Shown here in pieces: positions 31,705 through 35,400 of a stretch of 37,134 nucleotides of DNA (its first letter is position 1; each line of letters starts with the position of its first letter). This DNA comes from an uncultured Verrucomicrobiales bacterium (GTDB lineage Bacteria > Verrucomicrobiota > Verrucomicrobiia > Verrucomicrobiales > Akkermansiaceae), in the NCBI GenBank assembly GCA_949373085.1, contig CASICJ010000017.1:1-37134 (forward strand), read 5' to 3'. A program made the position numbers and the translations under genes. Below the pieces are notes generated by a model. The model made no database searches. It worked only from the letters and a program-made list of their open reading frames with translations, and was not told the DNA's origin.

Positions 31705-33501
31705 CTATTGTCCCCCGTTTATGAGTCCTTGGATGATCGTGAGGTTCCGTTGTGCATCGGGATCACCGGGTCGAAGCTTAAGAGCCTTTTCAAAATAGGT
31801 CGCGGCCTGAGGGAGTTGCCCCTGCTTGGCTAGCACAAATCCTAGGTTTTTGTGGATGTCTGGGGAATTGGGATTGGCGAGAAGAGCCTTTTCGAAGGTA
31901 GCTTGCGCTTCAGTCCAGCGTTCCTGTTTGAGCAAAAGTTTGCTCAACTTAGATAGGCTTTTTTTGTCCTGTGGATTGCTACTGATGGCTTGTTGGAAGT
32001 GGCTAATTGCTTCCGTGATTTTCCCCTTCTGGGCGAGCAGAGTTCCCAGATTGGCGTTGGCTCTACCATGGTCAGGCTTGATTCGGAGGGCTTCGCGAAA
32101 ACTGGTTTCGGCTAGATCGAATCTCTTACTCTTGATGTAAGAAAATCCGAGATTATTATGGGGGCCGGCATTTTTGGGGAATGCTTCTACAAGCGAAAGA
32201 TTTTCGGATCTCGCAAGAGCGGTGTATCCTTCTTGCTGGAGGAAAGTAGCAAAGCGGTATTGAGCCTCGTATTGGTTTCTCTCGCGCGAAACGGTTGGGA
32301 TGGGCAGCGTTCGACCGGGCAGGGGAGCGGAGCGGGCAAATCGCTCGAGTCGGGTTCCTTTCGAATGGTTGACATCCGCTTTCACCTCGTCGGGATTCAA
32401 TCTTCCCTTGTAGATCACTGATACTTTTCTATCGCTATCGATGAGGAAACTGACTGGGACGGGAAGAGTTTCGGCACCGGTGATTTGGTAGTCGTGCATC
32501 GATTGGAGATAGCTGACTAATTGGATCGTTGCTCTACCATTCGCGAAGGGGAGTTTCAGTCGTTTAGCCATTTTTTCAGCGTCTGGCGCACTCGAGCTAC
32601 TTTCCTCGAGACCATCAACCGCGAGAGCGATGACTTCGATCCCAGCCTCACGGAGCTCCGAATTTTTTGCGGTAAGGTCTTTCAATTCTTCCTCGCAGGC
32701 CGGGCACCAACTGCCCCAGAGACTTAAGAGGTAGGATTTGCCTTCACTCGTCGGGATCGGTTGAGTGTCGCCATCGAAGGTTTGGTAATTCATTGGCGCC
32801 ATGGGAAGAAGAGTGGCGAGGGGAATGCGGGAGGTGCTTTCCGGAGACGGGAGATTGACCGGTGCTGGGGAGATAGCGACCTCACGTTTCTTTGTTTCGA
32901 TGGGCCTGGCTTCGCCGCTGCCTTGGACAAGGTGATAGCGTTGATCGATCGTGATCCCGGTGAATGTTTCGGTCCCTCCCCCTGGCCATTGGACTATTAC
33001 TGAATCGATTGCCTCGGCGCTGCCTAGGCCAAAGTGCAGGGCTTTGCTCGATTGGGAGAGGAATGATTCACCCGCGCGGAGGGTCTTGATGAGGGGTTGT
33101 GAACCAGCGATGATCACCTTCACCCGTGCCCCGATTGCGTCGCGGTTTGTTGTAGGAGCGGTCCCCTGAAGGCGAATGGTGAGGTGGTGGTTATCAATAG
33201 GAACATCGTTCCTAAAGAAGCGAAGCCGTGGAGCATTACGATTGGAGATCCATACGTCGAGATCGCCATCGTGGTCCCAGTCGGTGGTTACCAAAGCTCG
33301 GCCATCGTCAGGAAAGTCTATTCCTGAAGCGGCAGAGATGTTGGCAAAACTTCCGTCCGGTTTCGCGGTGTTTAGAAAGACGCAGTTACGTTCTCTACCG
33401 CTATAAGAACGGCCGCGGCGCATCATGCTACCGAAGGTTGCGTTGGCGCTTTCTAATTCGCTTGTTTTGGCTTCGCCAACCTCATTCAGGGATTGCGACA
33501 A
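31705..33501 (-). CDS. Downstream part of interrupted gene: last FG-GAP blade, ASPIC/UnbV, TlpA-like thioredoxin and TPR domains
   Basis: 598 residues if started at the TTG at 33501, but it reads in the same frame as the gene above with only a TGA (33523-33525) between them. Order: F-G-S-M-M-R-R-G-R-S-Y-S-G, then a Ca-binding FG-GAP loop (D-W-D-H-D-G-D-L-D-V-W, about residues 74-84), ASPIC/UnbV (I-G-A-R-V-K-V, L-R-A-G-E-S-F-L-S-Q-S, H-F-G-L-G, V-I-V-Q-W-P-G-G), a TlpA/redoxin-type domain with W-C-P-A-C near residue 268, and several TPR repeats to the end (A-E-T-S-F-R-E-A-L-R-I-K-P-D-H). It has no signal peptide of its own, and its first blade would be orphaned. This strongly suggests it is the second half of one long exported protein. 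The C-P-A-C site would do thiol-disulfide exchange. Confidence 0.85.
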   Translation of the reverse strand: MSQSLNEVGEAKTSELESANATFGSMMRRGRSYSGRERNCVFLNTAKPDGSFANISAASGIDFPDDGRALVTTDWDHDGDLDVWISNRNAPRLRFFRNDVPIDNHHLTIRLQGTAPTTNRDAIGARVKVIIAGSQPLIKTLRAGESFLSQSSKALHFGLGSAEAIDSVIVQWPGGGTETFTGITIDQRYHLVQGSGEARPIETKKREVAISPAPVNLPSPESTSRIPLATLLPMAPMNYQTFDGDTQPIPTSEGKSYLLSLWGSWCPACEEELKDLTAKNSELREAGIEVIALAVDGLEESSSSAPDAEKMAKRLKLPFANGRATIQLVSYLQSMHDYQITGAETLPVPVSFLIDSDRKVSVIYKGRLNPDEVKADVNHSKGTRLERFARSAPLPGRTLPIPTVSRERNQYEAQYRFATFLQQEGYTALARSENLSLVEAFPKNAGPHNNLGFSYIKSKRFDLAETSFREALRIKPDHGRANANLGTLLAQKGKITEAISHFQQAISSNPQDKKSLSKLSKLLLKQERWTEAQATFEKALLANPNSPDIHKNLGFVLAKQGQLPQAATYFEKALKLRPGDPDAQRNLTIIQGLINGGQ

Positions 33502-33525
33502 AACTTGTCGCCAGTAGAAACTTCA
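33495..33525 (-). promoter_or_regulatory. In-frame TGA plus perfect hairpin: possible SECIS-like recoding element
   Basis: On the minus strand the TGA at 33525-33523 is followed by 11 bases, then G-C-G-A-C-A-A, loop G-T-T, T-T-G-T-C-G-C (33511-33495). The stem is a perfect 7 bp. The distance from TGA to loop (18 bases) and a G as the first loop base fit the published general rules for bacterial SECIS elements (small apical loop, G in its first two positions, loop about 16-37 bases after UGA). The reading frame is open on both sides. A nonsense mutation with a chance hairpin is the alternative. Confidence 0.4.
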
Positions 33526-35400
33526 CAAATCCCCTGGATCTTCGCCCGTGATATTTCCATTGGCGACGAGGATATCCTGCCATCCGTCATTATTTAGGTC
33601 GGCAAAGCTGGTGCCCCAAGCCCAGCGGGCTATCGCGACTCCGGCCGCCTCGCTGACATCGTCAAAGGATCCTTTTCCAGAAGCCTTCATCAACGTGCTA
33701 CCACGGGCGAATCGTTGAAGTCTTTCCCGAACTTCGGTTGGGGCATCCGGTTTGAATTGATCTTGATAAGTGATTCGGTTTCCAGCGGCTGAGAACATGT
33801 TGCTTACGTAAACGTCCATGTTGCCGTCCCGATTGTAGTCTCCCCAGGTGACGGCCATTCCAGAGGCGCTGTCTTCGACCCCGGATTGGGCGGCGACATC
33901 CACGAATTTCCCACCATCGTTTCGGAAAAGGTTGTTCCGTCCGAAGTCATTGGCGACGTATAGGTCCTGGTCACCATCGCCATCGTAGTCTTCCCAAGAG
34001 GCAGCGAGGCTCCAGCGCAGATTATTTTGGTCAAGCCCGGTCTCGGTCGTGACGTTTCGAAAGTTGAAAGCATTTTCGTTTTTGAAAAGGCTGTTGGGGC
34101 CCCCGGAATTGGAGTCATGATAGACGAAATCACCCCCGACAACGCCGCTTGATCGCGATTGGGGACCGTCCGAGCTATTTTGATAGTAGGTGCAGACGTA
34201 GAGGTCGAGGAGACCGTCGCCGTCGTAATCCGCCGCGCTCATCGACATAAGATCATCGGCAGTGGGTAGCAGAGTTTGGTATTCGAATCGGCCATCACCT
34301 TGATTGGCGGCCAGCACAATTCCGCCCATCATGGCCACGGCAAGATCTTGGTCACCATCATTGTCTAGGTCGACTAGAAGGGCGCTACGCGAACCCTCCA
34401 GCCAATTGACCTCCGCCTGTTCGGATTTGTCGCTAAGGGTTCCATCGGGGTTCTGGACATAGAGACGGTTGGGAAGGCCGTCTTCCTGGCAAAGATAGAG
34501 ATCATCGAGCCCGTCGCCGTTGACATCTCCCAGAGCCAATCCGGGGGTGCCCAGCCAAAAGAAATATTGGGTGTCCTGTGTGCGTCGTAGCCAATGACCG
34601 TATCCGTGGCCAAGCTGCGTTTCAAATGAATCTGTGGATCCGATGACGGATTGAGTGCAATCGGAGAAGAGGGTCCGGCCGGGAGTGTGAGAGTTAATCT
34701 GCTCGATATCGCTAACTTCAATGGAGGTGAGGAGGGGTAGCGAGTCATCGTCTTTTTTAATCCAACGGGTTCGCCAGGTGGCGTGCTTTTCGATGACGCC
34801 CTTTTCGGTGATCCCAGAGAGTGCTATATATTGTAGGGTCGTGAAGGATTTGTCGTCCTGCTGCACACGGAAAACCTTGGGGGTGAACCTTAGATCCGTT
34901 CCCCCGGTCAAGGGGGCGCCCAGATTGCGGAGTGCGGTTTCGATTTTGGCGAGGCCTTGTTGTTTTGATTCAGCTGGTTGATCCGGCATGCGAACGATAT
35001 GGAGCACGGAATCTGAGAATACGGGTTTGGAATCCTCCGTTTCGAGAGAGTGAAAAGAAATGCCATCGCTCACAAACTGGCGAAGACTCTCGGAGTTAAT
35101 TTCCCCGGGGTTTAGGATCAACTTGCCAAGTCCTTTGAGTTGCTGTTTCGCTTCTTCCGCGAGCGCCTCGGTAGGCCAGCCATCGGCATTTGGGTCGTCG
35201 AGGCGATCCATCGGGATTTCGGGTTGGGCTGGGACTAGATAGGGTTTGTCGGACGATCCGAGGGCTGGATCGGAATTATCTTGGAAAATTAGAAAAATGG
35301 TTGCGATAGCAATCAGCACGGCCCCAAGCAAAATTAGAGGCTTCCGTTTCTTTGGCCGCGACCCGATTGGTTTTTTCTGATTCTTGTGTGTTGAAGTCAT
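33523..35400 (-). CDS. Upstream part of interrupted gene: membrane-anchored CRTAC1-like FG-GAP/VCBS repeat protein
   Basis: 625 residues ending at TGA. A basic cytoplasmic start (K-K-P-I-G-S-R-P-K-K-R-K) and one helix (about 22-40) anchor it, with the rest outside the membrane. After about 230 residues of unassigned sequence come six Ca-binding FG-GAP loops: D-V-N-G-D-G-L-D-D-L-Y, D-L-D-N-D-G-D-Q-D-L, D-Y-D-G-D-G-L-L-D-L-Y, D-Y-D-G-D-G-D-Q-D-L-Y, D-Y-N-R-D-G-N-M-D-V-Y and D-L-N-N-D-G-W-Q-D-I-L. These are blades of an integrin-type beta-propeller. The seventh loop lies past the TGA in the same frame, together with the UnbV domain that normally follows in CRTAC1 proteins. The ORF therefore looks like the first half of a ~1231-codon gene. 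Ligands and role are unknown; surface adhesion or redox-linked assembly is possible. Confidence 0.87.
   Translation of the reverse strand: MTSTHKNQKKPIGSRPKKRKPLILLGAVLIAIATIFLIFQDNSDPALGSSDKPYLVPAQPEIPMDRLDDPNADGWPTEALAEEAKQQLKGLGKLILNPGEINSESLRQFVSDGISFHSLETEDSKPVFSDSVLHIVRMPDQPAESKQQGLAKIETALRNLGAPLTGGTDLRFTPKVFRVQQDDKSFTTLQYIALSGITEKGVIEKHATWRTRWIKKDDDSLPLLTSIEVSDIEQINSHTPGRTLFSDCTQSVIGSTDSFETQLGHGYGHWLRRTQDTQYFFWLGTPGLALGDVNGDGLDDLYLCQEDGLPNRLYVQNPDGTLSDKSEQAEVNWLEGSRSALLVDLDNDGDQDLAVAMMGGIVLAANQGDGRFEYQTLLPTADDLMSMSAADYDGDGLLDLYVCTYYQNSSDGPQSRSSGVVGGDFVYHDSNSGGPNSLFKNENAFNFRNVTTETGLDQNNLRWSLAASWEDYDGDGDQDLYVANDFGRNNLFRNDGGKFVDVAAQSGVEDSASGMAVTWGDYNRDGNMDVYVSNMFSAAGNRITYQDQFKPDAPTEVRERLQRFARGSTLMKASGKGSFDDVSEAAGVAIARWAWGTSFADLNNDGWQDILVANGNITGEDPGDL

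Follow-up and report, generated by a model that had tools for sequence, protein, structure and literature searches.

The window analysed here, a stretch of 37,134 nucleotides from an uncultured Verrucomicrobiales bacterium of the family Akkermansiaceae (assembly GCA_949373085.1, contig CASICJ010000017.1), carries on its minus strand, at 31705–35400, what we interpret as a single selenoprotein gene in which a hairpin directs insertion of selenocysteine (Sec). We put the probability of this overall explanation, based on sequence comparison, at about 0.94. The comparative evidence makes it almost certain that the UGA at residue 626 (TGA at 33523–33525) would be decoded as Sec. An earlier note on this DNA had proposed a possible new selenoprotein whose one frame is split only by a single TGA; translated through the TGA, which becomes residue 626, the frame runs for 1,231 residues to a TAG stop at 31705–31707, and the Sec reading is now strongly supported by comparison with relatives. 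The two open reading frames on the minus strand, 33523–35400 (625 amino acids, terminated by the TGA) and 31705–33501 (598 amino acids from a TTG, terminated by the TAG), share one frame and are separated only by the TGA and the seven codons S-F-Y-W-R-Q-V, so that the coordinates in the earlier note were reproduced.

Comparative evidence for a selenocysteine codon

Conservation was examined in the best 80 of 450 related loci, taken from named genomes (handles beginning with L, G and C denote loci, genomes and contigs). A TGA stands at exactly the window column in 52 of the 80, and these comprise every locus that covers the site at 41% identity or more (best segment); 27 more distant loci lack a TGA there, and one (L080) stops short. 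By record title, the TGA loci belong to Verrucomicrobiota (31), Planctomycetota (17) and Acidobacteriota (2) or are unassigned (2), and one of them (L019) sits on a 4.6-Mb chromosome record. The residue aligned to the TGA in homologues, to which the earlier note had looked for support, is Cys (TGC or TGT) in 13 of the 23 more divergent sequences read, in the context D-[YH]-C-[ST]-x-[FY]-W, and Gly (5), Ser (2), Asp (1), Ala (1) or a gap (1) in the remaining 10, which are farther still. Three further rows were omitted from the 23 because each was a secondary alignment, to another blade of a TGA gene. The closest sense-codon clade carries Cys, and the Cys relatives have an uninterrupted frame. 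Among the loci read, close relatives include no Cys form; the idea that Cys forms are absent altogether was rejected, since they are present among weaker matches.

Wider surveys gave a similar distribution of the codon. Of 145 Akkermansiaceae genomes, 42 have matches with E no higher than 1e-20, and each match listed to E 3.5e-73 contains exactly one internal TGA; four weak carriers (G065, G095, G110, G140) lie below that level and outside this row-by-row reading. A planctomycete order of 296 genomes has one TGA in 84/84 rows of at least 212 bits, the column not being checked per row, and by hand count 26 of its 48 weaker rows have one TGA and 22 have none. The TGA form was found in at least two genomes of a 387-genome sample of the window's phylum (at most eight candidates scored per genome), indicating that the selenoprotein family is patchily distributed.

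Judged from codon substitutions, both halves of the frame are under purifying selection and the downstream part is translated. Ratios of nonsynonymous to synonymous divergence (dN/dS, Nei–Gojobori) were 0.04–0.11 before the TGA and 0.08–0.30 after it in five comparisons (L147, L001–L004); dS exceeded 1 for L003 and L004, making these ratios rough, and the pairs with L006 and L015 gave no dS. One of the compared sequences, L147 on contig C40 of the window's own genome (G000), is 96.6% identical to the window over 3,513 bases (31708–35220), retains the TGA and the hairpin, and differs in 16 codons before the TGA and 93 after it. Either recent duplication or strain variation within the assembly would explain this copy.

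The hairpin itself is of the bacterial selenocysteine insertion sequence (bSECIS) type and occupies 33495–33511 on the minus strand. The earlier note had described a perfect 7-bp stem with loop GTT beginning 11 bases past the TGA, and both the sequence and the fold agree with that description: GCGACAA at 33505–33511 pairs with TTGTCGC at 33495–33501 around a loop at 33502–33504, with a folding energy of −9.1 kcal/mol (z −1.92, 6/200 shuffles as good). Covariation was scored in 44 of 54 copies, 10 similar copies being excluded. A six-pair family stem is paired in 98.5% of 264 cells, with three of its six pairs changed on both sides, and its covariation score of 0.233 (shuffled mean 0.076) was reached by 0/500 shuffles, as were four of five stem measures; the count of further pair types was reached by 14/500. 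When the stem is shifted by one to three columns, pairing drops to 14–69% and the score does not exceed 0.062. The window has gained a seventh pair relative to this family stem, and the loop carries G-T in 80/80 clade A members. In L040, W-R-Q becomes W-S-Q and V-V-S becomes V-V-A where the second stem pair is changed on both sides, which indicates that the amino-acid changes follow the pairing. On these alignments, the hairpin downstream of the TGA is an RNA structure, family-wide far beyond chance.

The selenocysteine machinery, which the earlier note had suggested seeking, is complete in the window genome (3.41 Mb, 81% complete). SelA scores 413 bits and SelB 318 bits (cut-off 242). SelD is present in two pieces of 269 and 95 bits (cut-off 125; G000:C8:1589-2519, L098 and L099) and, with one in-frame TGA, is probably itself a selenoprotein. 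A tRNA-Sec scores 53.6 bits (cut-off 47) and is assigned the anticodon TCA (UCA) by ARAGORN. A weaker SelB match with a TGA on contig C26 (L091) was also considered as a selenoprotein and rejected, as it is a frameshifted EF-Tu.

Carriers of the gene tend to carry SelA as well. Within the window's own family, SelA occurs in 39/42 carriers versus 26/103 non-carriers (p 1.5e-14), or in 37/38 versus 28/107 when the four weak carriers are moved to the other group. Hand tallies for the planctomycete order gave SelA at E <1e-100, a line chosen after the table had been seen, in 34/40 genomes with TGA rows versus 41/256 others (p 7e-18); at E 1e-20 the figures were 34/40 versus 105/256 (p 1.3e-7). When the genomes behind individual loci were examined, SelA was found in 38/42 with a TGA locus (sampling 42 of the 52) and in 5/8 with a non-TGA locus (sampling 8 of the 27), one of which (G540) has TGA members elsewhere.

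Several observations weigh against a hairpin-directed selenoprotein. The window hairpin alone, at the z given above, is modestly better than chance. The tRNA-Sec model exceeded its cut-off in 5/14 control genomes, and the ARAGORN agreement therefore matters. SelA was not found in 3/42 carriers of the window's own family (assemblies 70–83% complete), in 4/42 genomes of the sampled TGA loci and in 6/40 TGA-bearing genomes of the planctomycete order; the latter two sets include large assemblies, of 7.2 and 9.2 Mb. Finally, the tree places the Asp-bearing L127 within clade A, although its very long branch is flagged as unsure.

Domain architecture and the proposed redox role

The predicted protein begins with a hydrophobic segment (residues 22–39, 35284–35337) that on inspection of the translation is a possible membrane anchor or signal. 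Cys occupies aligned residue 37 in 24/46 relatives, in a lipoprotein-like arrangement, and Leu stands there in the window protein. Together, the hydrophobic N-terminus and the lipoprotein-like Cys suggest an extracytoplasmic location, and the protein is probably membrane-anchored and extracytoplasmic. An FG-GAP beta-propeller region follows at about residues 260–735 (33196–34623), recognised by Pfam (PF13517/PF01839), AlphaFold2 and Foldseek. When the translation is read by eye, six Ca-type DxDxDG loops lie upstream of the TGA and one downstream, as the earlier note had counted, and Sec 626 falls between the sixth and seventh loops of the propeller.

Of the regions behind the TGA, the earlier note had named the UnbV domain and the C-P-A-C thioredoxin site. 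The UnbV_ASPIC domain matches at residues 755–822 (32935–33138; PF07593, 70.6 bits, cut-off 23.4), and a ResA/TlpA-like thioredoxin domain of the AhpC-TSA type at residues 876–994 (32419–32775; PF00578, 40.6 bits, cut-off 26). Within the latter lies the C-P-A-C motif, residues 899–902 (32695–32706), both of whose Cys are invariant in relatives (47/47 aligned sequences reaching the region). Tetratricopeptide repeats (TPR) close the protein at residues 1081–1213 (31762–32160), where several TPR models exceed their cut-offs and extend over residues ~1081 to 1214. A further residue, Cys 673, is retained in 44/51 aligned sequences, the 51 having been selected for carrying the TGA.

An AlphaFold2 model of residues 55–1060, built from 45 sequences with Cys replacing Sec, reached a predicted local distance difference test score (pLDDT) of 89.6 and a predicted template modelling score (pTM) of 0.91. 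Its best solved match by Foldseek is murine CRTAC1 (9etn; E 1.6e-26, target TM-score 0.73, 18% identity), and CRTAC1 is also the best solved match by profile (E 6.1e-28). The C-terminal part matches ResA structures (Foldseek, E 9.6e-9 to 4e-8), and the thioredoxin domain gives profile matches to TlpA and ResA chains. In the model, residue 626 (model residue 572) opens a helix at 572–582. The Sec stretch lies outside all five local profile matches to CRTAC1, which hints, though weakly, that the Sec helix may be an insert relative to CRTAC1.

The distribution of Cys residues around the site offers a lead on function. A motif survey of all the loci collected recovered 131 TGA-x-x-x-W sites with at least 60 residues before and 100 after; the family profile retained 125 of these, 110 of them distinct. 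Seventy-nine of the 110 lack U-x-C and have a CxxC 200–420 residues downstream, 25 have U-x-C without such a CxxC, five end with the contig and one (L126) has neither feature. Pfam places the CxxC in a thioredoxin-type domain in both such proteins scanned (window, L131) and found no such domain in the one U-x-C protein scanned (L133). The mutual exclusion of U-x-C and CxxC is striking by count in these translations, and suggests that Sec may be redox-active, with its partner thiol either two residues away or in the fused domain.

We hypothesize that the UGA at 626 is decoded as selenocysteine by SelA, SelB, SelD and tRNA-Sec under the direction of the hairpin 11 bases downstream, and that Sec 626 would then act as a redox nucleophile. 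The oxidised Sec could be reduced by the fused C-P-A-C domain, and in sister clades that lack a thioredoxin domain the Cys two residues after Sec (U-x-C) would resolve it in cis. We consider such an extracytoplasmic redox role and electron path of Sec rather more probable than its opposite. Three observations weaken the case. In a phylogeny of 83 rows, which excluded short rows and included a selection of 33 from clade A, two independent changes suffice to explain the exclusion, and a sign test is not significant; 7/25 U-x-C members come from a single genome (G827); and L126 (G540:C28), a TGA member without U-x-C or a downstream CxxC, carries a Cys five positions upstream of that codon. The neighbourhood is similarly uninformative: across the 52 loci and the window (27/52 loci spanning at least 10 kb) no conserved neighbour was found in more than nine loci. 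Two neighbour clusters occur in nine loci each, seven of them in common, and the lack of a widely conserved neighbour gene leaves no pointer to a substrate.

The main alternative to this role is that Sec is present and serves as a structural or metal-binding residue, for example as a ligand at a propeller site, and is not redox-active. This is a tenable explanation that we regard as rather doubtful. FG-GAP loops bind cations, and to our knowledge CRTAC1, the closest solved fold, has no known enzyme activity or function. The U-x-C motifs and fused CxxC domains, with their invariant C-P-A-C, are nonetheless typical of thiol redox chemistry and argue for the redox role of Sec 626.

Competing explanations of the TGA

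The remaining alternatives, several of which the earlier note had raised (a nonsense mutation, a sequencing error or translation in two parts), do without selenocysteine, and all are very unlikely. The first supposes two separate proteins, with translation stopping at the TGA and restarting nearby and the hairpin serving as a reinitiation signal. The downstream frame does have a possible start, TTG at 33501, and GTG stands at that codon in most aligned rows. The start is not kept everywhere, however: the codon is GGG in L021 and L034, GCG in L042 and ACG in L020. Moreover, relatives conserve S-F-x-W-R-x-V, behind the TGA, at the protein level, a second protein would start inside the propeller and would presumably have no export signal, the gene co-occurs with SelA, and the Cys relatives run through the site unbroken. 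We therefore consider two separate proteins quite improbable.

If the TGA were read as some other amino acid, through a reassigned codon or simple read-through, a frame that stays open past the codon would likewise be accounted for. This reading is even harder to sustain, since TGA also terminates 36/85 closed frames of the same family and has therefore not been reassigned, and since the frame is accompanied by a covarying hairpin and Sec genes and its nearest sense-codon clade carries Cys.

A nonsense mutation, pseudogene or sequencing error is the least probable explanation of all: the in-frame stop is a lone one in a metagenome-type assembly in which EF-Tu and a twelfth family copy look frameshifted, but the same TGA recurs in 52/52 loci at least 41% identical that cover the site, from independent assemblies, and in the near-identical copy on another contig, both halves are under purifying selection, and for the family as a whole recurrence in independent genomes refutes it.

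Clades, novelty and relation to known systems

Hairpin-directed selenocysteine would extend well beyond the window gene. The multi-copy nature of the selenoprotein family and its several TGA clades could not be seen from the window alone, on which the earlier note was based. Clade B, a further TGA group, typically reads G-F-Y-T-A-P...D-L-U-S-x-[LF]-W-R-T-V-V-R, and the folds of its single members are less uniform. Two of its members at L179 (G827:C30) have a post-TGA GAAGC...GCUUC unlike other clade B hairpins. Another such group, clade C, typically reads K-P-D-G-U-[TSR]-C-[LIVF]-W-x-A-V-V-[ST]-Q-P, and most of its members have a hairpin of their own, GGCUGU/ACAGCC, with a loop that is mostly CGUGUC or CGUGAC; in the clade C member L182 two hairpin pairs are changed on both sides.

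The window genome contains 11 family matches with one TGA and the twelfth, broken shortly after its TGA; no Cys member was found there at E 1e-10. Rows with one TGA number at least 24 in the planctomycete G807, at least 17 in G109, and at least 17 plus a fragment in G046, counts that are lower bounds (150 of 230–384 candidates scored) and for which the TGA column was not checked per row. By comparison, the largest bacterial selenoproteome named in the portions of PMC12013277 available to us has at least 46 genes from many families. TGA members also neighbour one another on single contigs, with two in L008, five on G512:C105, four on G807:C50 and three in L136 (G827:C32), an adjacency that indicates local duplication. 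At about 48.8–50.5 kb of G000:C36 (L187) two clade B genes adjoin on opposite strands, and the frame of the plus-strand copy ends 30 codons past its TGA.

The selenoprotein family appears to be uncatalogued. FG-GAP, UnbV or CRTAC1 selenoproteins are absent from Table 1 of PMC9312934 (87 families) and from Table 1 of PMC13188914 (119 families and subfamilies), and among the papers listed by literature searches of open-licence PMC papers none dealt with a selenoprotein family of FG-GAP/UnbV type. None of the NCBIfam matches listed exceeded its cut-off, either for the window protein (25 of 43 matches; likewise for residues 55–850) or for single members of clade B, clade C and the Cys clade. The main text of PMC4807772 describes selenoproteins in planctomycetes with a supplementary list, in which the window family could be included. 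A limitation of methods relying on Cys homologues is stated in the part of PMC12013277 available to us, and with no Cys form among the close relatives read, such methods may have missed the family.

On balance, we favour a previously unrecognised extracytoplasmic selenoenzyme superfamily in which a CRTAC1-like beta-propeller forms the scaffold. It would comprise at least three clades with Sec and one with Cys, a resolving thiol supplied by U-x-C or by a fused thioredoxin domain, and up to 24 genes per genome. If so, a single family would account for a large share of the selenoproteins of some Verrucomicrobia and Planctomycetes, and genomes with 11 to 24 copies would be expected to have a strong need for selenium. 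An annotation pipeline that treats each TGA as a stop would probably break every one of these genes into two, and a sizeable selenoprotein set could thus be hidden in Verrucomicrobiota and Planctomycetota. A Sec in a CRTAC1-type propeller would also offer a testable key residue in a fold without an assigned function.

The window protein shares with CRTAC1 and the ASPIC/UnbV proteins an FG-GAP beta-propeller joined to an UnbV-type domain (PF13517 and PF07593). The CRTAC1 structure 9etn, in contrast, has no counterpart to the fused thioredoxin and TPR parts, and we know of no selenium in CRTAC1. With the ResA/TlpA thiol-disulfide oxidoreductases the window protein has in common a thioredoxin fold bearing W-C-P-A-C; here, however, the ResA-like domain is one part of a 1,231-residue protein, and the Sec lies outside it, in the propeller. 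The SECIS element of Escherichia coli fdhF is a hairpin shortly after the UGA with G-U in its apical loop. The window hairpin is alike in lying close behind the UGA and in its G-U apical loop, whereas its stem differs from that of fdhF, and clade C has yet another hairpin. In its UGA with a hairpin directly downstream, its Cys homologues and its U-x-C and CxxC-type motifs, which some catalogued proteins also show, the window family resembles the prokaryotic selenoproteins already catalogued.

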